Of a DNA stretch of 64,000 nucleotides, positions 16,265-31,173 are shown piece by piece. A program made the translations under genes and the position numbers. Each line of letters starts with the position of its first letter. The first letter of the stretch is position 1. This stretch comes from Arthrobacter luteolus NBRC 107841 (GTDB lineage Bacteria > Actinomycetota > Actinomycetes > Actinomycetales > Micrococcaceae), in assembly GCF_001552075.1 (NCBI RefSeq), contig NZ_BCQM01000006.1, forward strand, positions 1 through 64,000, written 5' to 3'. The notes beneath the pieces were generated by a model. It had not been told where the DNA came from, did no database searches, and saw only the letters and a program-made list of their open reading frames with translations.

Positions 16265-17506
16265 GTGAGCCCACAGAGCCGAGCACGGCAAATCAGGGAC
16301 GTTGTTTTCGTCGACGGCGTTCGGACCCCGTTTGGAAGAGCCGGCGAGAAGGGCATGTACGCCGACACCCGGGCCGATGACCTGGTGGTCAAGTGCATCC
16401 GCGAACTCCTGCGCCGCAACCCGTCGCTGCCGCCCGAGCGCGTTGACGAGGTAGCCATCGCCGCCACCACCCAGACCGGCGACCAGGGCCTGACCATCGG
16501 CCGCACTGCAGCCTTGCTGGCCGGGCTCCCCCGCACGGTTCCCGGCTTCGCGATCGACCGGATGTGCGCCGGTGCCATGACCGCCGTAACGACGACGGCG
16601 TCGGGCATCGGTTTCGGCGCCTACGACGTCGTGATTGCCGGCGGCGTGGAGCACATGGGCCACCATCCGATGGGTGTGGGCGCGGACCCGAACCCGCGTT
16701 TCGTTACCGAGCGGCTGGTGGATCCGGCTGCGCTGAACATGGGCAACACCGCGGAGAACCTGCACGACCGCTTTCCGGAGATCACCAAGGACCGCACCGA
16801 CGCGTACGCCGCCGCGAGCCAGGAAAAGCTGGCCAAGGCCTACGCCGGCAACCAGATCCAGCCGGACCTGGTGCCCGTAGCCACCAAAAAGTCCGGAGCC
16901 GGCTGGACCCTCAGCACGGTTGACGAGGGCCCCCGCCCGGGCACCACCGTTGAGGATCTGGCAGAACTGCGCACCCCGTTCCGGCCGCACGGCCGTGTGA
17001 CGGCCGGCAACGCCTCAGGGCTGAACGACGGCGCCACCACGGCCCTGCTGGCCTCCGCGGATGCCGCTGAGGAACTCGGCCTGCCCGTGAAGATGCGCCT
17101 GGTTGGCTATGCCTTCGCCGGCGTCGAGCCCGAGGTCATGGGCATCGGCCCGGTCCCGGCCACGGAGAAGGCACTGAAGCAGACCGGACTGTCGATCGAG
17201 GACATCGGCCTGTTTGAAATCAACGAAGCCTTCGCCGTGCAGGTGCTGTCCTTCCTGGACCACTTCGGCATTGCCGACGACGATCCCCGCGTCAACCGCT
17301 ATGGTGGCGCGATCGCCGTCGGGCATCCCCTTGCGTCGTCCGGCGTCCGGCTGATGACCCAGCTGGCCCGCCAGTTCGAGGAAGACCCCTCGGTGCGCTA
17401 CGGCATGACCACCATGTGCATCGGCCTGGGCATGGGCGCCACCGTCATCTGGGAAAACCCCAACCACCCCGATTACAACACCGAGTCCACGGAGGCTTCG
17501 AAGTAA
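16265..17506 (+). CDS. fadA: 3-ketoacyl-CoA thiolase / acetyl-CoA C-acetyltransferase
   Basis: 413 residues, thiolase II fold. Catalytic Cys101 is in IDRMCAGAMT, the NEAFA box and the His of VGHPLASSG follow, and the second cysteine is in MCIGLGMGA. GTG at 16265 has GAGGAG nine bases upstream. The stop TAA overlaps the ATG of fadB (TAATG), so the two are translated together and should form the last steps of beta-oxidation: hydration, oxidation and thiolytic cleavage. Confidence 0.92.
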   Translation: MSPQSRARQIRDVVFVDGVRTPFGRAGEKGMYADTRADDLVVKCIRELLRRNPSLPPERVDEVAIAATTQTGDQGLTIGRTAALLAGLPRTVPGFAIDRMCAGAMTAVTTTASGIGFGAYDVVIAGGVEHMGHHPMGVGADPNPRFVTERLVDPAALNMGNTAENLHDRFPEITKDRTDAYAAASQEKLAKAYAGNQIQPDLVPVATKKSGAGWTLSTVDEGPRPGTTVEDLAELRTPFRPHGRVTAGNASGLNDGATTALLASADAAEELGLPVKMRLVGYAFAGVEPEVMGIGPVPATEKALKQTGLSIEDIGLFEINEAFAVQVLSFLDHFGIADDDPRVNRYGGAIAVGHPLASSGVRLMTQLARQFEEDPSVRYGMTTMCIGLGMGATVIWENPNHPDYNTESTEASK

Positions 17507-19644
17507 TGACCGCACCTGATTACCAGCGCCTGGCCGGGCTCTTCCCGAACGAGGTCATCACCCACTCCTACGTCACCGACGTTGAACTGCCCGGCGGCGC
17601 CGGCACCTTCGCGCTCATCACGCTGGATAACGACGTCGATCATTCGCGCCCCACCACGCTGGGCCCGAACACCCTGCTGGAGCTCGGCAGTGTGCTCGAT
17701 TCCCTCAAGGAACGGGCCGGCCGGGGGGAGATCGTGGGCGTCGGCGTGACAGGCAAGCCCCATTACCTCGTCGCGGGCGCTGACCTTTCGGCAGTGAAGA
17801 CCCTGGCCGAGTACGAGGACGGCGTGGCCATGGCAGCCCTGGGCCATGAGGTCTACGGCAAGCTCGGCACCCTGGGCGTTCCCAGCTTCGCGTTCATCAA
17901 CGGCGTGGCCCTCGGCGGCGGCCTGGAGATCGCCTTGCAGTCCGACTACCGCACGGTTTCCACCGGTGCCGGTGCGCTGGCGCTGCCCGAGGCGTTCATC
18001 GGCCTGGTTCCGGGCTGGGGCGGCGTTTACCTGCTGCCGCGCCTGATCGGTCCCGAGAATGCCGTGAAGGTAATGATCGAGAACCCGCTGAGCAACAACC
18101 GGACCCTGTCCGGCCCGGCTGCCTACAAGCTGGGCGTGGCGGATGCCCTGTTTGAGCCGGCAGACTTCCTGGAGCAGTCCCTCGCCTGGGCGTCGCGGGT
18201 CATTACCGGCGCGGAGACCGTGAACCGGCCGAACGCCGTCGAGCCTTCCGACGTTGGCGACCGCTGGGACGCCGCCGTTGCCGCCGGCCGGGCCTTCGTG
18301 GAGGCACGCACCTCCAACGCAGCTCCGGCCCCGGCCAAGGTGCTGGACATCTTCGAAGCCGGAAAGAACTGGACCCGCGAGCAGTCCCGTGAGGCCGAGT
18401 GCGATGCGCTGGCTGAACTGATGCAGACTCCGCAGTTCCAGTCCACCGTGTACGCCTTCCTGGACCTCGTGCAGAAGCGCGGCAAGCGTCCGGCCGGCGC
18501 GCCGGACAAGAAGCTCGCGCGCCCGGTGACCAAGGTCGGCGTCGTCGGCGCAGGCCTGATGGCCAGCCAGCTCGCCCTGCTGTTCGCCAAGAACCTCAAG
18601 GTCCCCGTCGTGATGACGGACATCGACCAGGCGCGGGTGGACAAGGGTGTGGGCTACGTCCACGCCGAGGTGGACAAGCTGCTGGGCAAGGGCCGCATCT
18701 CCCCCGACGCCGCGAACCGCACCAAGGCTCTGGTCACCGGATCGGTGTCCAAGGAAGCCTTTGCCGACGCCGACTTCGTGATTGAAGCCGTCTTCGAGGA
18801 AATGTCCGTGAAGAAGCAAGTCTTCGCCGAGGTGGAGGCCGTCGTCTCCCCCGAGTGCATCCTCGCTACCAACACGTCTTCCCTGTCCGTCACCGAAATG
18901 GCAGCGGACCTGCAGCACCCGGAGCGCGTGGTGGGCTTCCACTTCTTCAACCCGGTGGCCGTCATGCCGCTGCTGGAGATTGTGCGCGCCCCGAAGACCG
19001 ACGACGCCGTGCTGGCCACCGCATTTGTCCTCGCGAAGCAACTGAAGAAGACCGCCGTACTGGTCAAGGATGCCGCCGCTTTTGTGGTCAACCGCATCCT
19101 CGGCCGGATGTTCGGCGAGATCACGAAGGTGTTCGATGAGGGCACCGACGCCGCAACTGCGGACAACGCGCTGCGCCCCATGGGCCTGCCGATGACGCCG
19201 TTTAACCTGCTGGCCCTGGTGGGCCTGCCGGTGGGACAGCATGTGCAGGAATCCCTGCACGCTGCCTTCGGCGACCGCTTCCACGTCTCGGAAAATTCGC
19301 AGAAGCTGATCGACGCCGGCATCACGTCGCTGTGGCAGCAGGACGCCGACGGGAAGCCATACGTCCCGGAGGAAACCCTGGCGCTGCTGTCCTTCGGCGA
19401 CTCACCGTCAACCTCGGAGGAAGTCCTGCGCCGCACGCAGGATGCCCTGGCTGAGGAAATCGGCCTGATGCTTGAGGAGGGCGTGGTGGCGGGCCCGGAG
19501 GACATTGACCTGTGCGTCATCCTCGGTGCCGGCTGGCCGATGCACCTCGGCGGCATCACGCCGTACCTGGACCGGGTGGGGGCCTCCGACCGGGTGAACG
19601 GAAAGCTGTTCAACGCCGGTGCTGTACCGGTGGCCGCTGGCTAG
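17506..19644 (+). CDS. fadB: Multifunctional enoyl-CoA hydratase / 3-hydroxyacyl-CoA dehydrogenase
   Basis: 712 residues. The N-terminal crotonase domain (1-300) shows the oxyanion loop SFAFINGVALGGGLEIAL and the second catalytic segment LALPEAFIGLVPGWGG. The NAD-binding domain starts near residue 345 with KVGVVGAGLMASQLALLFA, followed by the dehydrogenase segment VVGFHFFNPVAVMPLLEIV and a C-terminal 3HCDH pair. The protein is the alpha subunit of a trifunctional complex with FadA. Only 28 bases after the stop lies the first copy of the palindromic repeat described below. Confidence 0.92.
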   Translation: MTAPDYQRLAGLFPNEVITHSYVTDVELPGGAGTFALITLDNDVDHSRPTTLGPNTLLELGSVLDSLKERAGRGEIVGVGVTGKPHYLVAGADLSAVKTLAEYEDGVAMAALGHEVYGKLGTLGVPSFAFINGVALGGGLEIALQSDYRTVSTGAGALALPEAFIGLVPGWGGVYLLPRLIGPENAVKVMIENPLSNNRTLSGPAAYKLGVADALFEPADFLEQSLAWASRVITGAETVNRPNAVEPSDVGDRWDAAVAAGRAFVEARTSNAAPAPAKVLDIFEAGKNWTREQSREAECDALAELMQTPQFQSTVYAFLDLVQKRGKRPAGAPDKKLARPVTKVGVVGAGLMASQLALLFAKNLKVPVVMTDIDQARVDKGVGYVHAEVDKLLGKGRISPDAANRTKALVTGSVSKEAFADADFVIEAVFEEMSVKKQVFAEVEAVVSPECILATNTSSLSVTEMAADLQHPERVVGFHFFNPVAVMPLLEIVRAPKTDDAVLATAFVLAKQLKKTAVLVKDAAAFVVNRILGRMFGEITKVFDEGTDAATADNALRPMGLPMTPFNLLALVGLPVGQHVQESLHAAFGDRFHVSENSQKLIDAGITSLWQQDADGKPYVPEETLALLSFGDSPSTSEEVLRRTQDALAEEIGLMLEEGVVAGPEDIDLCVILGAGWPMHLGGITPYLDRVGASDRVNGKLFNAGAVPVAAG

Positions 19645-19672: not shown

Positions 19673-19763
19673 GCGCCGGGCGGACCGGAACGGCGGCAAC
19701 GAAATTCCCGCTCGCAGAGCTCGCAGGGAATATTAAAGCCGCCTAACCCGGTCCGTCCGGCGC
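19673..19763 (+). repeat. Structured palindromic repeat, copy A
   Basis: Nested inverted repeat 28 bases after fadB. Outer arms 19673-19688 and 19748-19763 pair at 15 of 16 positions (the other is G-T). Inner pairs are GGCGGC/GCCGCC (19692-19697/19738-19743) and ATTCCC/GGGAAT (19704-19709/19726-19731), closing a loop that contains GCTCGCAG twice. Copies B and C share the core (GGCGGCAACGA and CTGCGAGC) but differ in stems with compensating changes. Orientation given is that of the upstream gene. Confidence 0.8.
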
Positions 19764-19797
19764 TTTCGCGTTAGAGCGGCCATGCGAAGATGGGCGG

Positions 19798-20880
19798 ATG
19801 AAAGCCCAGCCCGAGTTGCTTCTTGACGGTCCCCGTGGCCGGCGCCTGTGCCTTGAGCTCGCGATGGAACTTGATCCCGGCGTCAGGAACGCCGTCTTCC
19901 GGCTGGGGTACGAACTGGACCCCGGCAAAGGGACATCCACTGTCCTGTTCGCGTTGTCCAGCGACGGCCCGGGCGATTCCACAGGTCCGGGCGGATCCCC
20001 GTCGCTGGAAGACCTGGCGGCGGCACTGAGTTCCATCGATGCTTCCAGTCTCACGGAGGCGCAGCTGATGGCGGCGCTTGAGTGCTCGGTAGGTAACGCC
20101 CGCTACTGGCAGGAACCCGCCGGGGAGGACGTGCTCGCTGGGCTCCCAGCCATCGTCGAAGCTCTCCGCCCGCTCGCCGAGCACGTCCTGGCAACCCCCA
20201 CGTGGCGGGAATGGTCCCAGTCCCGCCGGCCGGAACAGTGGGCCGTTGACTGGCGCTCAGCGGAGGACCCGGCGCCGCTGCCACGGGATCCGCAAAAGGC
20301 GCTGAGCAGGTGGGCGGAAGAGGTACGGACCGAGGAAGCCCGGGCTGCGGCGGAGCGGCCCGGGAACGTCTACGCCAACTTTTCCGGAAGCTGGTGGTCC
20401 TTCCCGCTCAGTCTTCTCCGGACAGCTGGGGCCATCCCGCAGGCCCTCAGCCTGGTGGAAGATTTCCCCGGCTGGGAGGAGGCAACCGTCATTCCGGTGT
20501 ACGGCACCGGCCGGACCCTCGAGATCCGCACAGCGGATGACTGGATCTCACTTTGCCGCGCCCATCCGCTGGACGTCACCGCCTCCCGCCGCCACGATTG
20601 GTTCCGCACGACCGGACGGGACGGCTCCTGGGTCATCCCCGACTGGCAGCGGGTCTCCGGGGAGTGGGACGCGGTTCACCTCACGACCGCCGGCTACCTG
20701 CACACCGCTGGCCGGGCGCTCCAGGTGGGCCGGGATACGGCGTCAGTCCTTGCCGGGTGGGACCCTGATGGCACACTGTGGCTTGCAGATGCCGCCCGCG
20801 AGGCAGATGCCCCGCGGCAGCACTGGCACCGGGATCACAACGGCGATGTCTGGAGCCGGGTACGCCGCCCTGAGCAGTAA
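19798..20880 (+). CDS. Hypothetical protein, 360 aa
   Basis: I do not recognise this protein. It is soluble, with no signal peptide, acidic in the first half and rich in tryptophan in the second (FSGSWWSFPLSLL, SWVIPDWQRVSGEWDAVHLT, LAGWDPDGTLWLADA). The last part reads like a beta-rich domain recording a value per residue stretch rather than an enzyme with a visible motif. ATG at 19798 is preceded by a weak GAAGATGGGCGG. It lies between repeat copy A and a convergent membrane protein gene three bases away. Codon use is like its neighbours, so the frame is very probably real. Confidence 0.75.
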   Translation: MKAQPELLLDGPRGRRLCLELAMELDPGVRNAVFRLGYELDPGKGTSTVLFALSSDGPGDSTGPGGSPSLEDLAAALSSIDASSLTEAQLMAALECSVGNARYWQEPAGEDVLAGLPAIVEALRPLAEHVLATPTWREWSQSRRPEQWAVDWRSAEDPAPLPRDPQKALSRWAEEVRTEEARAAAERPGNVYANFSGSWWSFPLSLLRTAGAIPQALSLVEDFPGWEEATVIPVYGTGRTLEIRTADDWISLCRAHPLDVTASRRHDWFRTTGRDGSWVIPDWQRVSGEWDAVHLTTAGYLHTAGRALQVGRDTASVLAGWDPDGTLWLADAAREADAPRQHWHRDHNGDVWSRVRRPEQ

Positions 20881-20883
20881 GGC

Positions 20884-21396
20884 CTATGGGCCTGCCGGGC
20901 GGCGAGAAGGCGGTCGCCGCCTGCCTAGGAGCATGACGACCACCAGCGCAATCAGGGCAACGGCGCTCACGAGGTAGAGCAGCATGCCCCAGGGCGTATG
21001 GTCACCGCCGGTTGTGGCAAAGGTATCGGCAATCCCCATACCGGCGGGGAACGAGGCGAACCAATGTGACGGCGCCGCAAGGACCAAAAGCAGTAAATCC
21101 ATCCTGACGACCGTGCTCACCCAGAGTCCGGGACCCCACTGTGATGCGATGAGGACCAATCCTGCGAGCAGCACCCCAGTGACGGCCCAAGCGAGTACCA
21201 GAGGCATGGCTAGGGACTCGTTGGCTCCGGCCATAGCTGTCCGGATTTCGTCGAGCGTTGCCCCGGGCACAGCCGCCTGCGGATTCCAGGCCAGCACTTG
21301 GAAGGCCCCGACGGTCGCATAACAGGCAATCATGATCAGCCCGGTAACAGCCGCCCACTCGGCCCTCCACCGTTCGCCTGTTGCCGAATCCACCAT
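20884..21396 (-). CDS. Hypothetical membrane protein, four helices
   Basis: 170 residues from the ATG at 21396. Four hydrophobic segments are visible (GLIMIACYATVGAFQVLAW, LVLAWAVTGVLLAGLVLIA, VVRMDLLLLVLAAP, LLYLVSAVALIALVVVMLL), ending in an arginine-rich cytosolic tail. The loop between helices 1 and 2 contains PGATLDEIRTAMAGANESLA. I cannot assign a family. The gene converges on the 360-aa hypothetical gene with a three-base gap and has no operon partner. Confidence 0.65.
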   Translation of the reverse strand: MVDSATGERWRAEWAAVTGLIMIACYATVGAFQVLAWNPQAAVPGATLDEIRTAMAGANESLAMPLVLAWAVTGVLLAGLVLIASQWGPGLWVSTVVRMDLLLLVLAAPSHWFASFPAGMGIADTFATTGGDHTPWGMLLYLVSAVALIALVVVMLLGRRRPPSRRPAGP

Positions 21397-21675
21397 GGCC
21401 CGCAGCGTAGCAGTCCGGAAAGTATGCCCCCACTCCAGCACCGTCCAGCGGGAAAGGTTCTCTCCGGTGCCGGGATCCCGCTCTGGGCATTCTTGGATTG
21501 CCGGTGCAGTACATCGGGGGAACCGTGATCATGCCGCTGCCGTGAAGGAGTCGAGGTTGGAGTCAGATAGACTGCCACAGCTTTGATTGGTGCCTTTGCT
21601 CTTGGAGTGGCGAAGGCCGCCGGCGGATGTCGAGGCTCACGAAAACCCAGTCCAGCGGAAAGAGGCAGGAAACGC

Positions 21676-22461
21676 GTGACAGAGTTCTGGCACAGCAGGC
21701 AGGTGCCGCATCTGGAATCGCGCCGGTCCTGCCGGGACAGTGCCTGCTACCGCCCTCACACCCATGACCGGTTCTCGATAGGCCTGATCGACTCGGGTAC
21801 CACCGTGTTCAGCGGTGCCGTGGGAGACCCGGTCCGGCTGACGGCCGGCGATGTCATCCTCATTCCGGCAGGCCACGTCCACGCCTGCAACCCGGATGAA
21901 GGCCGCTGGCAGTACCAAATGATCCAGGCGGACCAGAACTGGATCACGGCCCTTCTGCCTCCGACGGCGGCACATCTCCTGGCCGGAATCAGGGTGTACC
22001 GGCAGCCGGAGATTTACCGTCGGTTCACCGCCATCAACAATCTGCTGTTCAACGATGCTGAACCCAGCGGAACCGAAACCGGGTTCCGGGCCGGCCTGCA
22101 TCAATGTGCGGCGCTTGAACCGACGTACCGACTGGCTGCCGACGGCGATGCAGAGCTTCTTGCCCGTCTGCTTCCGGTCTTTGTCCGGCTGCGGCAGGAT
22201 GAATCGAACCCGTCCCTCGAGGACCTGGCCGCGCTGGCGGGAATGGGAAAATACCAGCTCATCCGGGCCATGAAGCGCCAGACCGGGCTGGCACCGCTGG
22301 CCTGGCGCCAAAACGAACGCGTCATAGCGTCGCGGCGGATGCTCCGCGAAGGCCGGGCCCTGGCCGACACCGCCCATGCCCTGGGGTTCGTGGACCAGAG
22401 CCACTTCCACAGGGTCTTCCGCGCCCACGTGGCCGCGTCTCCGGGAACCTACCGCGGCTAA
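21676..22461 (+). CDS. AraC family transcriptional regulator
   Basis: 261 residues: an N-terminal cupin sensor (CYRPHTHDRFSIGLIDSG, LTAGDVILIPAGHVHACNP) and a C-terminal double HTH (SLEDLAALAGMGKYQLIRAMKRQ and LADTAHALGFVDQSHFHRVFRAH). The GTG at 21676 has AGGAAA upstream and gives the usual short N-terminus (TEFWHS); the frame from 21583 has no support. The LysE-type exporter follows after 78 bases, and AraC-LysE pairs are common, so the regulator probably controls that exporter in response to an amino acid or similar effector. Confidence 0.87.
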   Translation: MTEFWHSRQVPHLESRRSCRDSACYRPHTHDRFSIGLIDSGTTVFSGAVGDPVRLTAGDVILIPAGHVHACNPDEGRWQYQMIQADQNWITALLPPTAAHLLAGIRVYRQPEIYRRFTAINNLLFNDAEPSGTETGFRAGLHQCAALEPTYRLAADGDAELLARLLPVFVRLRQDESNPSLEDLAALAGMGKYQLIRAMKRQTGLAPLAWRQNERVIASRRMLREGRALADTAHALGFVDQSHFHRVFRAHVAASPGTYRG

Positions 22462-22539
22462 CCGCAATTTCGTACAAGACTGCTCCCTGACCCAACCCGC
22501 ATCCTGAACGAGGTACGTCGTCGAGATAGCTGGGGATAG

Positions 22540-23157
22540 ATGGAGCAGTTCTTTGCTGTGGCAGCAGCACATTTTTTGGCCTTGCTGATCCCCGGGGTGG
22601 ATTTCTTCCTGATCGCCCGCAGCGCGGTGAGCAGCGGATGGCGGACCGCCAGCGGCGCGTGCCTCGGGATCGCACTGGCCAACGGCGTCTTTATCGCTGC
22701 CGCGTTCTCCGGGCTGTCTCTGGTCTCGCATCCGACGCTGCTCGGCATTATCCAAACGGCCGGCGGGCTGTTTCTGACCTACATTGGCATCGCGTTCCTC
22801 CGTTCCAGTGCCCGCATCAGTGTCATGAACGAACCTGCAGCGCCTGGCAACACCTGGGGAAAGAATCTGGGACTCGGGTTAGCCTCCGGCCTGCTCAACC
22901 CGAAGAACGCGCTCTTCTACGTCGCCCTCGCCACTGGGCTCTCCGGCGCCGGCACCGGCGAATTGATGCTCTACGGCGCCTGGATGTTCGCCGTCGTCCT
23001 GGTCTGGGACCTGTTCATGGCCGTCGCGCTGGGATCTGACCGGGCGCTGGCGAAGCTCTCCCGTTTCCTGCCCTGGATCACGAAGGCAGCTGGGGGTTTC
23101 CTCGTACTGCTGGGCACCGGGATGATCATCACCCTCATCGTTGGCCTCGTACGGTAG
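22540..23157 (+). CDS. LysE/RhtB family exporter
   Basis: 205 residues with six hydrophobic segments and the N-terminal LLIPGVDFFLIARSAVSSGWR typical of the LysE superfamily (amino acid or metabolite efflux by proton antiport). A second signature is LASGLLNPKNALFYVALA. ATG at 22540 has GGGGATAG upstream. Its likely regulator is the AraC gene before it. The exported substrate cannot be predicted. Confidence 0.85.
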   Translation: MEQFFAVAAAHFLALLIPGVDFFLIARSAVSSGWRTASGACLGIALANGVFIAAAFSGLSLVSHPTLLGIIQTAGGLFLTYIGIAFLRSSARISVMNEPAAPGNTWGKNLGLGLASGLLNPKNALFYVALATGLSGAGTGELMLYGAWMFAVVLVWDLFMAVALGSDRALAKLSRFLPWITKAAGGFLVLLGTGMIITLIVGLVR

Positions 23158-23225
23158 GGGCGCCCCACCCATAGGTCAGGCCTGCCTTCCGCGCCGCCGC
23201 GGGGTGATGGCACTACGTTGGGGGC

Positions 23226-24182
23226 ATGACGAATTCCCCGGAGACACAGACGAGTGGACAGACCCTGAAGATCGGGGTCGTGGGAGCCGGAGGGGTGGGC
23301 GCCTATTTCGCCGCGGCGCTGGCACGCGCCGGCCACGAAGTGCACTTGGTGGCGACACCGCGGCATATCGAGCCCATCCGGTCCTGCGGAATCCGCGTCA
23401 CCAGAGGAGACGGGTCGGAGGGGTTCATGGCAAGGCCGGCCACTATCAGCACGAATGCGGCGGCGATTGGTGCCTGCGATGCGGTAATTGTGGCCAGCAA
23501 GGCCGGCCAGGTCCGCGAGGCGCTGCTGGAGGCCAAGGCCTTGGTCGGGACTGATACTGTGGTCCTCCCGCTGCAAAACGGGGTGAGCGCCGCACACCAG
23601 ATCACCGACGCAGTCGGCGAGGGTCACGCGCTGGGCGGAGTCTGCATCATCATCTCTTACCTGACCGAACCGGGGATCGTGCATCACGTCGGCGGCCAGC
23701 CGGGCATCACCCTGGGAGAACTGAACGGGAAGGTCACCAGCCGGGTTGAAAAACTGGCGGCGGCGCTCTCGGACGCCCAGGTGCAGACCACCATCTCCGC
23801 GCACATCACTGCCGATATGTGGCGGAAGTTCATGCTGATCACCTCCTACGGCGGAGTGGGAGCCCTGTCCCGGGAACCGGTGGGCCGGACGCGTACCAAC
23901 CAGCTCAGCCGGAGCCTCGTCCGGGACGCGATGAGGGAAGTGGCCAACCTTGCCACGGCTGCCGGCACTCCCCTGGACGAAAGCGACGTCGTGGCGATGA
24001 TGCACCTGTACGACGCCTTCGATCCCGGCAGCACTTCTTCGATGCAGCGTGATCTAGCCGCCGGCAGGCCCTCGGAGATCGACGAGCAGACGGGGGCCGT
24101 TGTGCGGATTGCGGGGCAGTACGGAGTGCGCGTGCCGATTCACGACACAATCTACCGCGCCCTGAAACTGCGAGACGGCTGA
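23226..24182 (+). CDS. Ketopantoate reductase family protein (2-dehydropantoate 2-reductase-like)
   Basis: 318 residues. N-terminal NADP site KIGVVGAGGVGAYFAAALARAG, then the family lysine region IVASKAGQVREAL and a C-terminal helical domain with DMWRKFMLITSYGG and STSSMQRDLAAGRPSEID. These enzymes reduce ketopantoate to pantoate in CoA synthesis, but many paralogs have other substrates, and no other pantothenate gene is here, so panE is not assigned. It ends 15 bases from a convergent gene. Confidence 0.85.
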   Translation: MTNSPETQTSGQTLKIGVVGAGGVGAYFAAALARAGHEVHLVATPRHIEPIRSCGIRVTRGDGSEGFMARPATISTNAAAIGACDAVIVASKAGQVREALLEAKALVGTDTVVLPLQNGVSAAHQITDAVGEGHALGGVCIIISYLTEPGIVHHVGGQPGITLGELNGKVTSRVEKLAAALSDAQVQTTISAHITADMWRKFMLITSYGGVGALSREPVGRTRTNQLSRSLVRDAMREVANLATAAGTPLDESDVVAMMHLYDAFDPGSTSSMQRDLAAGRPSEIDEQTGAVVRIAGQYGVRVPIHDTIYRALKLRDG

Positions 24183-24197
24183 CCTGCCCTCGCTCCG

Positions 24198-24812
24198 CTA
24201 CGCCTGGCTGATGTCAATGCCCGTAATGGGGTCGCCCGCAAGTTCGTAGACCAGGGAGACCGCTCCCTTGGGGAAGCCCTTGGGCGCCTCAGCCAGGGCG
24301 AAGGCCGCCGGAACCCCGGCGCCGTCAGGAAACAGCCGTTTGCCGGTGCCGAAGGTCAGCGGATACAGGAAGAGGTTGAGTCTGTCGACAAGCCCCGCCT
24401 CGAGCAGCGGGCGTGCCAGGTCTCCGCTGCCAATCACATGAATGTCGTTGAACCGGTCCTTGAGCTCAGCCACGTCCGCGGGGCCTCTCAGCACCGCGGT
24501 ACCGTCCCAGGCGGGATCGGCCAGGGAGCGGGACACAACGAATTTGGGCATGGCATTGAATTTGGCCGCGATGGGATCCCCTGCGCTTTGGACGGGCCAA
24601 AACGCGGCAAAAATGTCATAGGTTTTGCGGCCGAGGAGCAACGCGTCCATGCTGTCGATGTTCGCCATGATCGACGCGCCGGTCTCCTCGTCGGAATATG
24701 CTGCCTGCCAGCCGCCGTATTCGAATCCGCCCTCCGGATCCTCATCGGGGCCCCCGGGGGCCTGGTACACGCCGTCGAGCGTGATGAACAGGTCCAGCGA
24801 TAGTCTTCCCAC
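24198..24812 (-). CDS. Dihydrofolate reductase / RibD C-terminal family protein
   Basis: About 204 residues. The fold is shown by LSLDLFITLDGVYQAPGG at the start, LLLGRKTYDIFAAFWP in the middle and NDIHVIGSGDLARPLLEAGLVDRLNLFLYPL in the NADPH-binding half. Small stand-alone members of this group are flavin or pteridine reductases of unknown role. The GTG at 24812 has AAGGAG six bases upstream; an ATG 15 bases earlier is in frame but lies on the ribosome binding site. Confidence 0.82.
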   Translation of the reverse strand: MGRLSLDLFITLDGVYQAPGGPDEDPEGGFEYGGWQAAYSDEETGASIMANIDSMDALLLGRKTYDIFAAFWPVQSAGDPIAAKFNAMPKFVVSRSLADPAWDGTAVLRGPADVAELKDRFNDIHVIGSGDLARPLLEAGLVDRLNLFLYPLTFGTGKRLFPDGAGVPAAFALAEAPKGFPKGAVSLVYELAGDPITGIDISQA

Positions 24813-24889
24813 GATGTGCTCCTTCACATATGCGGCAGCCCGGTTGTCGCGTAGACCGGCGGACCCGGCTGCCTTTTAATCAGTGGCCC

Positions 24890-25576
24890 TCAGTCCTCCT
24901 GCTGCCGGCGCACGATTTCCGTGATCCAGATGGGTGCGTACGGCGAGGTGCAGTTTGGCGGCGTCGGGTAGTCCTTGAGCACTTCCAGCCGTTCGCCAAT
25001 GCTGATGGCCCGGGCGCGAAGCCCAGGGTGGGAGATGCCGATCTGGGCCAGGCAGTTGTTCATCGCCCATTGCAGGCGGTCCGGGGCATCTTTCATCTCC
25101 GCCTCAATCGTGTCCAGCAGGCCAGGCAGATCCAGCCCGTCGGGACTCTTGGATACCCGCTCACTGGTCAACGCCCAGCCGGCGCTGGCCACTACCGGAT
25201 CCGGATCCGCAAACCAGAGAAGCCGCAGTTCTTCCGCATGCGGACTCTTCCTCACAACATAGTTGACGAACCAGTCGTGCACTTTGGGCACGCGGGCCTC
25301 GCGCAGCATGGTGTCCAGTTCGCCGCGTTCGAACGCTTTCGGGCGGCAGATCAGCAGCGCCACCAGCCGGGCCGCGGTGTCACCCGTCGACCACAGCTCC
25401 CGGGCAAGTTCCTGCTGCGTCTTCAACTGCTTTGCGACGGCGCGGAGCTTGCTCAGGTTCACGCCGTGATCGTCACCGTGCTTTTCGTTGACTGCCCGGG
25501 CCTTCGGATCCTCCAGCGCGGCCAGCTGGGCCAGCACCTCATCAACTGTGGTGGCGGTCGTTTCTGTCGCAGCCAT
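24890..25576 (-). CDS. DNA alkylation repair family protein (AlkD-like, HEAT repeats)
   Basis: 228 residues, all helical, in the AlkC/AlkD glycosylase-like family. Features are VNLSKLRAVAKQLKTQQELARELWSTG, ARLVALLICRP, HDWFVNYVVRKS, and WALTSERVSKSPDG. The family removes alkylated purines without base flipping. The ATG at 25576 follows GAAGAGAG. A member that diverged to other functions cannot be excluded, because the catalytic Asp/Trp pair was not located with certainty. Confidence 0.75.
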   Translation of the reverse strand: MAATETTATTVDEVLAQLAALEDPKARAVNEKHGDDHGVNLSKLRAVAKQLKTQQELARELWSTGDTAARLVALLICRPKAFERGELDTMLREARVPKVHDWFVNYVVRKSPHAEELRLLWFADPDPVVASAGWALTSERVSKSPDGLDLPGLLDTIEAEMKDAPDRLQWAMNNCLAQIGISHPGLRARAISIGERLEVLKDYPTPPNCTSPYAPIWITEIVRRQQED

Positions 25577-25617
25577 TTTTGCTCTCTTCATCCGCTGAAA
25601 TTCCAGCCTACCTTCGG

Positions 25618-25785
25618 TCAGCGTGCCGGGCGCTCACGTTGTACAAAGCCTCTACGCTGCGCCGGGCAAGGCCGATGCCGTAAATGCGGCGGCATCCTCG
25701 GGCCAGGGGTCTCACGTACCCGGCCAATGAACTCAACAACCGCGTCAGGGGTTGGGTCAGTCAGCTGCACCGGTGCGTCGCTCAT
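25618..25785 (-). pseudogene. Possible truncated gene start (leaderless), 55 codons
   Basis: TAGGGT is followed by six bases and an ATG at 25785, a standard leaderless start. The first 20 residues (MSDAPVQLTDPTPDAVVEFI) look like a genuine N-terminus, perhaps of an NTF2/SnoaL-like protein, but the sequence turns into unlikely Pro/Arg-rich coding and stops after 55 codons. It starts nine bases after the stop of the arsenite-permease-like gene. I read it as a remnant, but a real short protein is possible. Confidence 0.3.
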
Positions 25786-25794
25786 GGGTGCACC

Positions 25795-26796
25795 CTACGC
25801 CTCTGGCTGATGCTGGCAAGCGCTTCTTTCCGGAGCACGAACAAGCCGTGGGATGAGCCGCACCAGGAGCAGCATGCCGGCCAGTTCAACCAGGGTTTGG
25901 GTGACGACGGCGAGAGGCGCCAACCCCAGCGGCGCAGGGAGGACGAGTGCCAGGGGAAGAACCACCAGGGAATTCCGGGTAGCTCCGCTGAAGATGACCG
26001 CCCGGGTCCCGGGGACATCCAGCCTGAATGCCTTGGCCAGGCCCAGGCCAAGGGGGACCATGACTGCGAGGAAAGCTGCGTACAGGGGCACAACGGGGAG
26101 CAGCGAAGGGAGTTGACCGCCGACGGCACTGATCTGCGAGCCAACCACAACGGCGAGGGTGAGCATCATGAGAGGCACCATCAGGTCCTGAACAAAGCGC
26201 GTGAACTTCCCCGCGGCGTCGGAATTCCGGCTGGCCGCCTGCGTCATCACCGCCAGGACCAGCGGGACCAGGATCAGCCACACGAGAGCCGCCAAAAACG
26301 GTCCGGGTTCAAGGACCGAGCCAATGCCCGGGCCCACAATAACCAGCAGGTAGAGAGGTAAAAGGAGCATTTGGAGCAGCATGAGCACGGGTGCGGCAGC
26401 CAGAAGCCGATCGCTGGATCCGCCAGCCAGGCCGGAGAAGACAATCACGTAGTCAATGCATGGAGTCAGGAGCACCATCGACACTCCGACCAGCAATGCC
26501 TGCTCCCCTGCGATGAAGCGGGTCAGCACATATACAACAACCGGTACCAGCAGGAAGTTCAGGACGAGTACCGCAGCCATAAACCTGCCGTCGTGGAGTG
26601 CCTGGATCAGCCTGCCGAACGGAATCCCGAGAAACGTTGTATACAACAGCGCGCCCAGCGCCGGGTTGACGGAGAACTCGAACGCCGGCGCGGCCGCCGG
26701 AAGGAACCAGCCAATCACGGCACCTGCGAGAAGCGCCCCAAAGTAAAGCCCGATTTGGTGCCGGTCCATGCGTTCAACGAGCCGGGGGAAGTTCAC
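25795..26796 (-). CDS. Arsenite permease / bile acid:sodium symporter family (ACR3-like)
   Basis: About 333 residues with ten hydrophobic segments. The motif LLTPCIDYVIVFSGLAGG carries a cysteine in the helix where ACR3 arsenite exporters have their essential cysteine. Actinobacterial proteins of this type are usually annotated as arsenic resistance proteins, but no arsR or arsC is nearby. The start is unclear: GTG at 26796 or ATG at 26769 (MDRHQIGLYFGALL), neither with an ideal ribosome binding site. The frame further upstream is not supported. Confidence 0.78.
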   Translation of the reverse strand: MNFPRLVERMDRHQIGLYFGALLAGAVIGWFLPAAAPAFEFSVNPALGALLYTTFLGIPFGRLIQALHDGRFMAAVLVLNFLLVPVVVYVLTRFIAGEQALLVGVSMVLLTPCIDYVIVFSGLAGGSSDRLLAAAPVLMLLQMLLLPLYLLVIVGPGIGSVLEPGPFLAALVWLILVPLVLAVMTQAASRNSDAAGKFTRFVQDLMVPLMMLTLAVVVGSQISAVGGQLPSLLPVVPLYAAFLAVMVPLGLGLAKAFRLDVPGTRAVIFSGATRNSLVVLPLALVLPAPLGLAPLAVVTQTLVELAGMLLLVRLIPRLVRAPERSACQHQPEA

Positions 26797-26835
26797 TCCC
26801 CCATCTTGGCACTTCCGTCCTGTAGCCTCTCCCCG

Positions 26836-26931
26836 GTGACCAAGGACGCGACCCATCCGCTTAGTCCTGCAGCAGCGAACCGAACCGCCCAAGCCAGCCA
26901 CCGTTACCGGCGGCAGGAAGGTCCGGGTTAG
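26836..26931 (+). pseudogene. Possible 31-codon gene stub ending in repeat copy B
   Basis: TAGCCT at 26823-26828, seven bases, then GTG at 26836: a leaderless start. The frame stops after 31 codons at a TAG that belongs to repeat copy B (26910-27003). It may be the 5' end of a gene cut off when the repeat or a deletion arrived, or simply chance. Confidence 0.25.
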
Positions 26932-27003
26932 GCGGCTTTAATACTCCCTGCGAGCTCTGCGAGCGGGGAGTTTCGTTGCCGCCGTTCCGGACCCTCCGGC
27001 CGC
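26910..27003 (-). repeat. Structured palindromic repeat, copy B
   Basis: Lies 41 bases after the UvrA-like stop, in the same orientation relative to that gene as copy A to fadB. Outer arms 26910-26926/26987-27003 match at 15 of 17. Inner pairs are GGCGGC/GCCGCC (26931-26936/26978-26983) and ACTCCC/GGGAGT (26943-26948/26966-26971). Where copy A has ATTCCC/GGGAAT the pair is changed on both sides, and GGACC/GGTCC in the outer arm is likewise swapped on both sides. Confidence 0.8.
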
Positions 27004-27044
27004 CACTTGGCCCACCGGCCGGGACCACCGTGACCTACAGCAGC

Positions 27045-29606
27045 TCAGCCGAGCCGCTTTAGCGCAGCTGCCAGGTACGGCGCTGTACGCGAGGCTTCGC
27101 AGGCAGCCACCTCGTCCGCGGTTCCGGCACAGATAATCCGGCCGCCGTCGTCGCCGCCGGCCGGGCCCATGTCAATCACCCAGTCCGCGGCAGCCACCAC
27201 GTTCATCGAGTGCTCCACCACCACCACGGTGTTCCCGGCGTCCACCAGCCGGTTCAGCTGCGCCAGCAGCAGCTGCACGTCCTGGGGGTGGAGCCCGGTG
27301 GTCGGCTCGTCCAGCAGGTACAGGGTGTGGCCGCGGCGGGCACGCTGCAGTTCGGTGGCCAGTTTGATCCGCTGGGCTTCGCCGCCGGAGAGTTCCGTGG
27401 CGGGCTGGCCAAGCCGCAGGTAGCCCAGGCCGACGTCGAGCAGGGTCCGGAGGCTGCGGGCAGCCGCCGGTACATCGGCGAGGAACTCCGCCGCGGTCTC
27501 CACGCGCATGGCCAGGACGTCGGCGATCGACTTGCCGCGGTAGGTGACCTGCAGGGTTTCCTCGTTGTACCGGGCGCCGTGGCAGACCGGGCAGGGGCCG
27601 TAGGTGCCGGGCAGGAACAGCAGTTCGACGGCAAGGAATCCCTCGCCCTGGCAGGTTTCGCAGCGCCCGCCGGCCATGTTGAAGGAAAACCGGCCGGCGT
27701 TGTAGCCGCGGGCGCGGGCCTCATCCGTGCCCGCGTAGAGCTTGCGGACGGCGTCGAACAGGCCGGTGTACGTGGCGAGGTTGGAACGCGGTGTGCGTCC
27801 GATAGGCCGCTGGTCCACCCGGACGAGCCGATCCAGGTGTTCCAGGCCGGCAATGCTGCGGACCTGGACGCCGGGGTCCTCGTCCCGGGCGTCGGCGTCG
27901 CCGGCTTCGTCAGTCTCCTCCGGTTCCGGCGGAGCGCCGTTGACCCGGGTGCCGACTGCTTCGGCCAGTACCTGGCTGACCAGCGTTGACTTCCCGGACC
28001 CGGAGACTCCGGTGACGGCGGTCAGGACACCCAGCGGAATCTCGGCGTCGAGGTCCGTGAGGTTGTGCCGGGTGATGCCCTTCAGCGAGAGCCACTGCTC
28101 TGCCCGGCGCCGGGCGGGAGCGGATTCCTGCGCTTCACCGAAAAGGAAGGGGCGGGTGGCGCTCTCCGCGACGTCGGCGAGCCCGGCGACCGGACCGCTG
28201 TAGAGGACCGTACCGCCGCCGTCGCCGGCCTGCGGGCCAACGTCCACGATCCATTCGGCGCTGCGCACCACGTCCATGTTGTGCTCCACCACAAAAACCG
28301 AGTTGCCTGCGTCCTTGAGTTCCTGCAGGACCGCCAGCAGCGGCTCGGCATCCGCAGGGTGCAGCCCGGCGGAGGGCTCATCCAGCACATAGACCACGCC
28401 GAACAGGCCCGACCGCAGCTGGGTGGCGATCCGCAGCCGCTGCATCTCCCCCGGCGACAGCGTGGGGGTGGCGCGGGAGAGGCTGAGGTAACCGAGGCCC
28501 AGACCAATCAGCACCTCCAGCCGGGCCAGCAGGTCGCGGGTGATGGTAACCGCGACCTCCGTGTCCTCGTTCGACGCCGAGGCCCGGGACGCGGTGCCCG
28601 CGGCCTTGAGCTCCGCCGTCGGCCGGATGATCTCCGCCAGCTCCCCGAGGGTTGCCCCGTTCAGTTCGGCGATGTTCCGGCCGGCAAACGTGACGGCCAG
28701 TGCCTCCGGGCGCAGGCCCGCTCCCCCGCAGACCGGGCAAGGACCGGAGACCATGTACTCCAGCACCCGTTCGCGCATCTTGGCGCTGCCCGAATCGGCG
28801 AGGGTGTGCAGTACGTAGCTTTTGGCGCTCCAGAACCGGCCCTTGTACGGTTTGGCCACGCGGTCCCGCTGCGGGGTGATGGTGACCACCGGCTGTTCGT
28901 CGGTGAAGAGGATCCAGTCGCGGTCCTTCTTCGGCAGCTTCCGCCAGGGCACATCGACGTCGTAGCCGAGGTGGATGAGGATGTCCCGGAGGTTCTTGCC
29001 CTGCCAGGCACCCGGCCAGGCTGCAATGGCACCTTCGCGGATGGTCAGGTTGGGATCCGGGACCAGGGAGTCTTCGGTGACGGTGTGCGCGATGCCCAGT
29101 CCGGAGCATTCGCGGCAGGCGCCCGCCGCGGTGTTGGGCGAGAAGGCGTCGGAGTCCAGGCTGCCGGGGACTGCGTCAGCCGGGTAGGTGCCGCCGCGGG
29201 AGAAGAGCATGCGCATGGAGTTGGACAGGGTGGTGAGCGTTCCCACCGTTGAGCGGGAACTGGCGGTCCCTCGCCGCTGCTGGAGCGCGACGGCGGGAGG
29301 CAGGCCCGTGATGGCTTCCACCTTGGGATTGTGGCCCTGGGAGATCAGCCGCCGGGCGTAGGGGGCAACGGATTCGAAGTACCGTTTCTGCGCTTCGGCA
29401 TAGATGGTGCCAAAAGCCAGCGAGGATTTTCCGGACCCGGAGATGCCGGTGAAGGCCACGATCGCGTCCCGGGGAATGTCGACGTCGACGCTGCGGAGGT
29501 TGTTTTCCTCCGCACCGCGGACCCGGACCATGCCGTTGCCGGATGTGCTGGCGGCACTGCGGGGGTTGGGAGCGGACTGGACGGCTGGTACAGGTTTGGT
29601 GCTCAC
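27045..29606 (-). CDS. UvrA-like ABC ATPase (UvrA2/DrrC type)
   Basis: 853 residues from a leaderless GTG at 29606 (TAGCGT, seven bases, GTG). Two ABC modules are seen: Walker A GISGSGKSS and GVSGSGKST, signatures LSPGEMQRL and LSGGEAQRI, Walker B VYVLDEPSAGLHP and LYLLDEPTTGLHP. Zinc cysteines are CRECSGLG, CPVCGGAG, CETCQGEG and CPVCHGA. It is about 100 residues shorter than standard UvrA, between the first Walker A and first zinc module, so the UvrB-binding domain is probably absent. UvrA2 proteins are linked to drug or DNA-intercalator tolerance rather than core excision repair. Confidence 0.85.
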   Translation of the reverse strand: MSTKPVPAVQSAPNPRSAASTSGNGMVRVRGAEENNLRSVDVDIPRDAIVAFTGISGSGKSSLAFGTIYAEAQKRYFESVAPYARRLISQGHNPKVEAITGLPPAVALQQRRGTASSRSTVGTLTTLSNSMRMLFSRGGTYPADAVPGSLDSDAFSPNTAAGACRECSGLGIAHTVTEDSLVPDPNLTIREGAIAAWPGAWQGKNLRDILIHLGYDVDVPWRKLPKKDRDWILFTDEQPVVTITPQRDRVAKPYKGRFWSAKSYVLHTLADSGSAKMRERVLEYMVSGPCPVCGGAGLRPEALAVTFAGRNIAELNGATLGELAEIIRPTAELKAAGTASRASASNEDTEVAVTITRDLLARLEVLIGLGLGYLSLSRATPTLSPGEMQRLRIATQLRSGLFGVVYVLDEPSAGLHPADAEPLLAVLQELKDAGNSVFVVEHNMDVVRSAEWIVDVGPQAGDGGGTVLYSGPVAGLADVAESATRPFLFGEAQESAPARRRAEQWLSLKGITRHNLTDLDAEIPLGVLTAVTGVSGSGKSTLVSQVLAEAVGTRVNGAPPEPEETDEAGDADARDEDPGVQVRSIAGLEHLDRLVRVDQRPIGRTPRSNLATYTGLFDAVRKLYAGTDEARARGYNAGRFSFNMAGGRCETCQGEGFLAVELLFLPGTYGPCPVCHGARYNEETLQVTYRGKSIADVLAMRVETAAEFLADVPAAARSLRTLLDVGLGYLRLGQPATELSGGEAQRIKLATELQRARRGHTLYLLDEPTTGLHPQDVQLLLAQLNRLVDAGNTVVVVEHSMNVVAAADWVIDMGPAGGDDGGRIICAGTADEVAACEASRTAPYLAAALKRLG

Positions 29607-29613
29607 CCCTTCG

Positions 29614-29619
29614 ACGCTA
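29614..29619 (-). promoter_or_regulatory. Leaderless -10 box of the UvrA-like gene
   Basis: TAGCGT on the minus strand, seven bases before the GTG at 29606. It decides the start: the frame continues 20 codons upstream without a ribosome binding site. Confidence 0.5.
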
Positions 29620-29739
29620 ACAGGGGGCGCCAATCTCCTTCGACCTGGCGGACGGGGTTTCACCACGGGCGTGATGACGGATTGTGGTTAGATACCCTTC
29701 CACACAAAGGCCACCTACCCGAGAACCAGGAACACCACC

Positions 29740-30030
29740 ATGTCTTTCCAGGCGTACCTTGACACGATCGAAGCTAAGACAGGACTAACACCCCGGCAGT
29801 TGGTTGATCTCGCGAAGAGCAAAGGCCTGGACGGCCAGGACATCAAGGATGGGGAAATTCTCGAATGGCTCAAAACCGACTACGGGCTGGGGCGCGGCCA
29901 CGGTATGGCCCTGGTGCATGTGATCAAAAAGGGGCCCACCATCGATGCCCGGCATGTGGGGACGTCCGGCCCGCACCGGGATGATTCCGTCACTCTGCGG
30001 CTGGATGGCAAAGCAAACCGTCCGTCCTGA
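29740..30030 (+). CDS. DUF4287 domain protein
   Basis: 96 residues. The N-terminal MSFQAYLDTIEAKTGLTPRQLVDLAKSKGL and the following EILEWLKTDYGLGRGHGMALVHVIK are typical of DUF4287, a small helical domain of unknown function, often found alone or fused to DUF5655. ATG at 29740 has AGGAA eight bases before. Divergent from the UvrA-like gene with 133 bases between. Repeat copy C follows it. Confidence 0.85.
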   Translation: MSFQAYLDTIEAKTGLTPRQLVDLAKSKGLDGQDIKDGEILEWLKTDYGLGRGHGMALVHVIKKGPTIDARHVGTSGPHRDDSVTLRLDGKANRPS

Positions 30031-30080
30031 GGGGTGACTGGCAGACCCCGCTGAAAACAGGCCCCGGCTGGGGGCGTGGA

Positions 30081-30173
30081 CGGCCGGAGGGCCCGGGATT
30101 AGGCGGCTTGGATAATCCAGGAACGCGCTGCGAGCAGGGATTATCGTTGCCGCCGTCCCGGTGCCTCCGCCCG
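30081..30173 (-). repeat. Structured palindromic repeat, copy C
   Basis: Lies 22 bases after the aldo/keto reductase stop, again in the same orientation relative to that gene. Outer arms 30081-30097/30157-30173 match at 14 of 17. Inner GGCGGC/GCCGCC (30102-30107/30149-30154) is unchanged, and the middle stem is GATAATCC/GGATTATC (30111-30118/30138-30145), different from A and B on both strands yet still perfectly paired. Confidence 0.8.
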
Positions 30174-30195: not shown

Positions 30196-31173
30196 TTAGA
30201 AGAGCGCAACCTTCGGAGCCTGCGGGAAGATCCGGTCCAGTTCTTCCAGGTCCTTATCCGAAGGCACCCAGGACGCGGCTTCAGCGTTTTGCCGGATCTG
30301 CTCCGGCTTGGTCGCGCCGGCGATCACCGAGGACACCGACGGACGCGACGCGAGCCAGGAGAACGCCACCTGGATTTCGCTCAGTCCGCGCTCCGCGGCG
30401 AACTGCCCGAATTCGCGCAGCTGGTCGTAGTCGGCGTCCTGCAGCAGGTTTGTCCGCGAGTGGGTCAGGCGGCTTCCCTCGGGGGCCGAACCGGAACTGT
30501 ATTTGCCGGTGAGCAGGCCGTTGGCCAGCGGGAAGTACGGCAGCACACCCAGACCGTAGGCCTCAGCAGCCGGAGTCACTTCGAGTTCGGCACGGCGGTC
30601 CAGCAGATTGTAGTGGTTCTGCGCGGAGATGAAGCGGGTGCTCCCGGCGGCACGGGCGGTGAACTCTGCTTCGGCGATCTGCCAGCCCGCCCGGTTGGAG
30701 TGCCCGATGTAGCGGACCTTGCCGCTGGTGACGAGGTCATCCAGGGCAGCCAGCGTCTCATCAATCGGCGTCAGCGGGTCCGGGGTGTGGAACTGGTACA
30801 GATCAATCCAGTCCGTACCCAGCCGGCGCAGGGACGCCTCCACCGACGTCATGATGTACCGGCGCGAACCGCGGGCATCGAAGTCGGGCCCGTTGACGCC
30901 CTTCATATCCATTCCGAACTTCGTGGCCAGGACCACGTCACTCCGGCGGGACCCAAGCGCTTTGCCGAGCCGCTCCTCGCTCAGGCCGGGAACCGCACCA
31001 TAGGTGTCTGCCGTGTCAAAAAGGGTGATTCCGGCGTCGACCGCGGCATGCACGACGGCGTCGGTGCCCTCCTGCGATTCGGTGGCGGTGCCGGGGCGGC
31101 CCAGGTTGTTGCAGCCAAGTCCGACGGTGGAGACCGTGAGGCCGGAGTTACCAAGTCTGTTGTATGTGGTCAT
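30196..31173 (-). CDS. Aldo/keto reductase
   Basis: 325 residues of (beta/alpha)8 NADPH-dependent carbonyl reductase. Markers: VGLGCNNLG at the start, catalytic LFDTADTYG (Asp, Tyr), VLATKFG (Lys), YQFHTPDPLTPIDETLAAL (His) and IGHSNRAGWQ. The C-terminal SVIAGATKPEQIRQNAEA binds the cofactor phosphate. The gene stands alone. Substrate unknown; the closest general type is the potassium-channel beta subunit/YhdN-like AKR branch. Confidence 0.88.
   Translation of the reverse strand: MTTYNRLGNSGLTVSTVGLGCNNLGRPGTATESQEGTDAVVHAAVDAGITLFDTADTYGAVPGLSEERLGKALGSRRSDVVLATKFGMDMKGVNGPDFDARGSRRYIMTSVEASLRRLGTDWIDLYQFHTPDPLTPIDETLAALDDLVTSGKVRYIGHSNRAGWQIAEAEFTARAAGSTRFISAQNHYNLLDRRAELEVTPAAEAYGLGVLPYFPLANGLLTGKYSSGSAPEGSRLTHSRTNLLQDADYDQLREFGQFAAERGLSEIQVAFSWLASRPSVSSVIAGATKPEQIRQNAEAASWVPSDKDLEELDRIFPQAPKVALF

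Follow-up and report, generated by a model that had tools for sequence, protein, structure and literature searches.

Hairpin stems that change on both sides while remaining paired usually count as strong evidence of a functional RNA. A family of repeats in Arthrobacter luteolus NBRC 107841 raises the question of what such changes mean when, as here, strong covariation comes without a wobble signal in the copies that are oriented as the gene in front of them (sense copies). Three of the repeats, referred to as copies A, B and C, lie in a stretch of 64,000 nucleotides (positions 1 to 64,000 of contig NZ_BCQM01000006.1; hereafter the window). A first-pass annotation of this stretch had described them as a three-copy family sharing a core and had taken their structure-keeping differences to indicate selection on a folded molecule. 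We found all three copies at the places given there (19673-19763, 26910-27003 and 30081-30173; arms mapped). Each of them is located 3' of a stop codon, as had been claimed, and has the same orientation as that gene. The middle stems read ATTCCC/GGGAAT in A, ACTCCC/GGGAGT in B and GATAATCC/GGATTATC in C, and the exchange of GGACC/GGTCC in the outer stem between A and B was likewise borne out. The family is indeed multi-copy, but the host genome has eight members (A-C included) rather than three. The shared core is present too, although the common part is wider and includes a GGCGGC/GCCGCC stem and an internal loop AACGAA/ATTAAA.

The covariation is real, yet selection on the fold does not follow from it by itself. 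The inference is weakened because template switching can write compensatory stem changes, because the arms of sense copies have no excess of G-U over A-C, and because the core switches strand at a fixed site. A better sign of constraint is the unpaired 6x6 internal loop, which survives in nearly all copies. From the sequence evidence we tentatively favour an ERIC/REP-like 3'-end and intercistronic hairpin that would act at the level of the transcript, without holding this reading to be established. The element has the look of a new family within a known type of bacterial repeat; its apparent flipping in place is unusual.

Element architecture and stem covariation

The element is about 90 nt long and consists of outer arms (P0), a 6-bp stem that is mostly GGCGGC/GCCGCC (P1), the 6x6 internal loop AACGAA/ATTRAA (AACGAA/AUURAA in RNA), a second stem (P2) and an apical part. 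P2 occurs as ATTCC, ACTCC, ATTTC, AATCC and other versions, each with its own complement. The commonest apical sequence is GCTCGCAGAGCTCGC, the alternatives including a G+C-rich mini-hairpin. Copies A, B and C fold with z = -5.5 to -7.6 on either strand, and none of 200 shuffles was equally stable. Copy C is atypical, as its internal loop is partly closed by GAT/ATC pairs, giving rise to the middle stem quoted above.

Among 156 distinct cores the 5' side of the loop is AACGAA in 148 and the 3' side ATTRAA in 144, a conservation somewhat overstated, since the copy finder demands a near-intact loop. P2 takes 28 variants across the same cores, a few of them mismatched. Altogether, 150 of 223 matches were aligned and 124 of these parsed; the 26 that did not were 22 antisense images and four real copies with altered motifs (L168, L122, L163 and L150). 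Among the model-found sense matches only 4 of 128 thus failed to parse.

Compensatory changes were counted in two alignments. In the first (A6), comprising 52 copies hand-picked for diversity from the 124 parsed matches, 97.5 percent of 676 cells are paired and 8 of the 13 pairs are changed on both sides. The second represents a single orthologous site between grpE and dnaJ (29 copies, two mis-trimmed rows of 31, L348 and L220, having been dropped; L202 was left out of a related analysis). Here, 12 of 21 pairs are changed on both sides, and 92 cells show such changes compared with 32 (standard deviation 4) in shuffles. With more sequences, the covariation is therefore well above shuffled and slid controls, and the helix covariation expected of a structured cis-acting RNA is present. 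Template switching is, however, an alternative source. During replication it creates and repairs hairpin stems, which the available text of PMC8794818 documents for RNA hairpins, and it is a sufficient rival source of the stem covariation. It would tend to close the internal loop, as perhaps in copy C, and does not obviously account for the survival of the loop. The family thereby lets mutation and selection be separated: the stems can be maintained by mutation, the loop should not be.

Some copies depart from the common plan. The inner hairpin is deleted in L150 (fadB locus of genome G023) and in L227, while the L226 match is enlarged to 127 nt. Tandem repeats of a single hairpin arm stand beside copies at L134, L154, L168, L277 and L288, as expected if slippage or template switching at a hairpin yields them.

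Position and orientation relative to genes

Gene ends were taken from a home-made caller; loci are complete for some genomes only, and some copies appear twice among the matches, under different locus names. Relative to the nearest gene end, 160 of the 201 distinct copies are sense and 20 antisense; for the other 21, no gene end was found at a distance of 300 nt or less. Counted by locus (43 in total), 33 are sense, 7 antisense (several of them resting on doubtful short open frames) and 3 mixed; for loci that never face a convergent gene the corresponding numbers are 17, 2 and 3. As the loci come from related genomes, sign tests overstate the significance of this bias. The distance from stop codon to stem base has a median of 15 nt (158 sense copies), and only one of the 201 copies lies in a clear divergent gap. 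The element occurs both where a gene end meets a convergent gene and in gaps between co-directional cistrons. The upstream genes, whose names were read by eye except in the window, have no common theme (fadB, aldo/keto reductase (AKR), nadE, citrate synthase, hisD, proC, trkA and others). In Arthrobacter, copies also occur behind pyrH, where the next gene is codirectional and codes for 173-185 aa (frr by size and order).

In a second Micrococcaceae genus (g46) the element is not scattered. We examined 62 loci of 65 matches (3 were not fetched), of which a script put 28 at grpE|dnaJ, 19 at rpoB|rpoC and 7 at gyrB|gyrA. Of the eight loci missed by the script, five are RpoB or GrpE loci with the element visible and three are all in genome G319. 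In total, 59 of the 62 loci fall into these three gaps, each of which separates co-directional essential genes. RpoB, GrpE, GyrB, PyrH and the following genes were named from protein sequence, size or order rather than annotation.

The rpoB|rpoC gap was also inspected in other members of the family (L296-L325). Many Micrococcaceae genera without the core keep a long plain G+C hairpin right after the rpoB stop; across 30 genomes of 25 genera, some have no hairpin at all (by eye). At this site in Micrococcaceae the hairpin is commoner than the core.

Distribution

Genomes were searched with R1, a model of the eight host copies, and R2, a model of 52 diverse copies. The family recurs in the host genome, in other Arthrobacter and in other Micrococcaceae. 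All 25 sampled Arthrobacter genomes, including the host, match R1, with 2-21 matches each among the matches listed; these counts contain a few antisense images (the nine host matches correspond to eight copies). Within Micrococcaceae, the R1 matches listed at E<=0.001 cover 53 of 295 genomes and 8 of 32 genera; two of these genera (g30 and g39), having no match with R2, are not counted as carriers. The matches listed for other families of the order (14 genomes) include one marginal R1 match (E 0.006). Broader scans of the order (396 genomes) and the class (394 genomes), run with strict filters that can miss weak copies, returned 8 and 2 matching genomes, respectively, every one from Micrococcaceae. 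Finally, one exact pattern searched in one genome per species (84,980 species) gave 68 stretches, one from Paenarthrobacter and 67 titled Arthrobacter, among them two uncultured and one metagenome-assembled genome; the type strains of A. koreensis and A. citreus are among the species that matched. As far as searched, the family thus appears to be restricted to Micrococcaceae.

The first-pass annotation named no described family with this core, and Rfam 15 gave no matches in the window at gathering thresholds and none at E<=1 in nine loci with copies; a known RNA family was accordingly rejected. No published description was found in the open-licence papers searched. In the available part of PMC12306157, a single Arthrobacter appears in a table that counts palindromes. 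The text at hand of a 2008 survey, which covered families of stem-loop repeats in 40 genomes, makes no mention of Arthrobacter (PMC2267715). Carriage on phages, plasmids or viral contigs was rejected as well: viral contigs had no match to one exact pattern, and plasmids and phages had none with copy A as the query.

Wobble pairs and strand changes of the core

Several observations count against a role of the folded transcript. First, in-between states are scarce in P1 and P2 (8 G-U and 18 A-C in 2211 cells, as counted with a finder that tolerates G-U but not A-C). Second, a structured cis-acting RNA should favour G-U over A-C on the transcribed strand, and the arms of sense copies do not: we counted 207 G-U versus 204 A-C using duplex folding (145 copies) and 130 versus 161 using ungapped pairing (137 copies), omitting rows with short flanks, repeated arms or an unclear gene. 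As a control, ordinary hairpins that follow genes at these loci gave 174 versus 129 (156 hairpins, p 0.011). In the few antisense copies G-U does exceed A-C on the transcribed strand, with 23 versus 13 (12 copies, duplex) and 22 versus 6 (11 copies, ungapped). Third, the strand complementary to the core has the more stable fold in 135 of 166 sense copies and in 11 of 12 antisense copies. Stems of this kind resemble DNA palindromes. In addition, one copy (L133 of genome G015) lies past a separate terminator-like hairpin.

A further argument of this kind comes from the rpoB|rpoC gap. Among 50 parsed rows (L243, in which no RpoB was found, was dropped of 51) the core is sense in 24, antisense in 11 and absent or undetected in 15, so that 11 of 35 core-bearing rows are antisense, two of the 11 being one sequence under two names. 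Antisense cores mostly keep the loop, L107 having lost one loop base. A tree was built from the coding sequences of rpoB and rpoC, with L313 left out as too short; on it, the 35 core-bearing rows require at least 8 sense/antisense changes. Over all 49 tree rows the antisense label needs 9 changes, and its clustering does not exceed that of shuffled labels (a number as low was reached in 119 of 500 shuffles). Even sister rows differ (G095 is sense, G239 antisense). The distance to the RpoB stop in g46 is near-constant for either orientation, 29-36 nt in sense and 40-44 nt in antisense copies.

The other two gaps are nearly uniform: 27 of 28 copies at grpE|dnaJ and 7 of 7 at gyrB|gyrA are sense, with L202 as one further antisense GrpE copy. 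Orientation may therefore matter at these sites and not at rpoB|rpoC. A simple explanation for the strand changes is in-place inversion between the P0 arms; alternatively, the core might be lost and then re-gained in the opposite orientation. Plastid hairpin loops invert in place between inverted repeats of 11-24 bp, according to the accessible text of PMC12928735, which credits Kim and Lee (2005). The likeness lies in a hairpin inverting in place. The plastid inversions described there span 5-50 bp, whereas in our case the strand change involves a conserved core of about 60 nt, the sequence of which is retained.

Comparison with known bacterial repeats

Judged by analogy with the portions of the literature available to us, the element would work most like ERIC, Correia and REP elements. 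ERIC (IRU) of enterobacteria is a palindromic intergenic repeat of about 127 nt, co-transcribed and with an orientation-dependent effect on mRNA stability, according to the available text of PMC2229807. The likeness is that of a palindromic intergenic repeat, the mRNA effect being reported for ERIC only. ERIC has TA ends and a target duplication (a table in PMC2229807), neither of which was seen in the Arthrobacter element; the latter has a near-invariant loop and apparent in-place flipping, which that text does not mention for ERIC. Lineage and sequence also differ. The Correia (NEMIS) element of Neisseria is a miniature element of about 107-155 nt whose transcript stem was proposed to be an RNase III substrate (same text). 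It has 24-bp terminal repeats and a target-site duplication; the arms of our element differ in sequence between loci. As for the general criterion for miniature inverted-repeat transposable elements (MITEs) of the ERIC, Correia and RUP kind, the arms are inverted repeats that vary by locus, with no clean empty site on which a duplication could be judged.

REP, BIME and REPIN sequences are, as described in the part of PMC3733652 at hand, palindromic, extragenic, often downstream of coding regions and plausibly transcribed, and in being palindromic, extragenic and downstream of genes our element resembles them. REPs are 20-40 nt long with a GTAG or CGTC tag at one end, and the GTAG types occur with Y1 transposases; neither Arthrobacter nor Actinobacteria is mentioned in that part. 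The two tests that we ran speak against a REP. First, the Arthrobacter element is about 90 nt long, and on inspection neither end of the aligned stretches carries a conserved GTAG or CGTC (these letters in single rows are chance occurrences in the apical part). Second, a search for the Y1 (RAYT) transposase (PF01797) was negative in all 24 genomes, 16 of them in the genus including the host, while a control search was positive in 5 of 14 known genomes. Mobilization of the RAYT type was rejected on this basis.

Proposed role and alternatives

Place, orientation bias and the held loop are the reasons for favouring a hairpin that acts at the transcript level; wobble neutrality and the strand changes weaken this reading. 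The element would be transcribed with the gene in front, marking the 3' end of that cistron, and the RNA would fold within the 3' untranslated or intercistronic part of the mRNA. The stem would then protect the upstream cistron from 3'-to-5' decay, and a nuclease or an RNA-binding factor might act at the unpaired, A/U-rich loop, a weak patch in a G+C-rich stem. In this way the element could give the upstream cistron a level different from that of the downstream one. Template switching in replication would partly keep the DNA palindrome matched and would also flip the core. In Arthrobacter the element may have spread to many gene ends by some copying route; at some loci copies decay.

A more specific version of this reading is doubtful. 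It would be a system specific to Micrococcaceae. A dedicated factor would recognize the unpaired AACGAA/AUURAA loop of an intercistronic hairpin in the operons for RNA polymerase, gyrase and the Hsp70 co-chaperones, at rpoB|rpoC whichever way the core is oriented. The palindrome would rewrite its stems and flip its core by template switching, with selection holding the loop, and in one genus the element would have spread behind dozens of genes. If the loop were so recognized, it would constitute an undescribed control layer between cistrons of RNA polymerase, gyrase and chaperone operons, belonging to a family of mostly environmental actinobacteria.

Close behind a transcript-level role ranks the possibility, somewhat less probable in our judgement, that the element is a self-maintaining DNA palindrome, a MITE- or REP-like mobile or replicating hairpin without host function that is tolerated behind genes. 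Template switching would keep its stems paired, tandemly repeat its arms and flip its core, and the loop would be the recognition point of a presumed mobilizing enzyme. The multiplicity of copies fits this explanation (2-21 matches per Arthrobacter genome among the matches listed), as do the lack of wobble asymmetry in sense copies, the change of core strand at a fixed site and the template switching documented for RNA hairpins (PMC8794818, in its available text). So do the decayed copies and the tandem repeats of a lone arm (L329 at glgP, and G019 at fadB), the presence or absence of copies at orthologous sites with a protein identity of 97-99 percent, and a pair of host loci (L003 and L005) that share arms and nearly the core but differ in their flanks. 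On the other hand, the concentration of 59 of 62 examined g46 matches in the same three operon gaps is not what random insertion would produce, and the orientation bias (33 versus 7 loci, 3 mixed) is not expected either. Moreover, neither a target-site duplication nor a clean empty site was demonstrable, copy-less relatives having diverged flanks or a decayed remnant; the Y1 transposase is absent from all 24 genomes; and no match came from viral contigs when one exact pattern was used, or from plasmids and phages when copy A was the query.

It is unlikely that the element is an intrinsic transcription terminator of unusual form, even though a long G+C-rich hairpin near stop codons, often between convergent genes, would suit one and hairpin clusters in other bacteria have been argued to depend less on a U tract for termination (PMC8355165, available part). 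There is hardly any U tract: the 10 nt after the stem contain on average 2.15 T compared with 1.79 expected from the next 50 nt, and five or more T are found in only 21 of 158 copies. Full termination should also do harm between co-directional genes, where copies do occur (rpoB|rpoC, grpE|dnaJ, gyrB|gyrA and behind pyrH), and a terminator has no need for an invariant internal loop.

Least probable, to the point of being remote, is a site in duplex or cruciform DNA, behind strongly transcribed genes, to which a topological or nucleoid protein would bind. REP/BIME sequences are reported to bind gyrase, and such a site would accommodate the strand changes tolerated at rpoB|rpoC, the Watson-Crick palindrome behaviour of the stems and the g46 copies in operons expected to be highly expressed; yet the stems vary freely in sequence, a latitude not to be expected if a protein bound the duplex, and orientation is biased at most loci.

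Three further candidates were discarded: a replication-strand element (G015 has copies in both orientations in both chromosome halves, by eye and with no statistic), a paired island or cassette (where flanking genes were called, facing + ... - pairs are mostly two convergent genes with a copy each), and attC-like or k-turn readings (poor fit in a comparison of motifs).

Copies in the window and neighbouring features

The positions of the copies and of the genes in front of them are given in Table 1. The core, GGCGGCAACGA...AAGCCGCC, is on the + strand in copy A and on the - strand in copies B and C.

Table 1. Hairpin elements and preceding genes in the window
Feature	Position	Strand	Details
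Copy A, whole element	19673..19763	+	outer arms 19673-19688 / 19748-19763; R1 score 96.5 bits
Copy A, inner arms	19692-19709 / 19726-19743	+	
Copy A, P1 (GGCGGC, 5' side)	19692..19697	+	partner 19738-19743
Copy A, internal loop	19698..19703	+	5' side AACGAA; 3' side ATTAAA at 19732-19737
Copy A, P2 and apical part	19704..19731	+	ATTCCC/GGGAAT; apical GCTCGCAGAGCTCGCA
Copy B, whole element	26909..27004	-	outer arms 26909-26926 / 26987-27004; R1 score 103.5 bits
Copy B, inner arms	26931-26951 / 26963-26983	-	P1, loop and P2 at 26931-26983
Copy C, whole element	30081..30173	-	outer arms 30081-30098 / 30156-30173; R1 score 86 bits
Copy C, inner arms	30102-30118 / 30138-30154	-	P1 to P1' at 30102-30154
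fadB-like gene (3-hydroxyacyl-CoA dehydrogenase/enoyl-CoA hydratase), before copy A	17416..19644	+	28 nt from stop to outer arm
UvrA-like protein gene, before copy B	27045..29666	-	
AKR gene, before copy C	30196..31173	-	

Matches behind the fadB-like gene were found in 12 genomes, the G023 match (L150) being the one without the inner hairpin; the fadB site of G019 retains only a remnant, the 3' arm. The AKR gene is likewise followed by copies in 12 genomes, and the orthologous AKR site of G005 (L282) has no copy.

A few minor observations concern the surroundings of the copies. In the window, an open frame of 360 aa without a Pfam match lies 3' of copy A (19798-20880). At locus L075 (G005 C6:426519-426716), an isocitrate dehydrogenase-like gene (name by eye) is followed by two copies in tandem, with 120 nt from one to the other. 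A second repeat behind genes, also recognized by eye, contains CGGTTTGT, in several cases together with its inverse ACAAACCG, around CCCTGCG stretches; it occurs at L141, L145, L146, L169, L331 and L344 in Arthrobacter and sometimes adjoins the element studied here.

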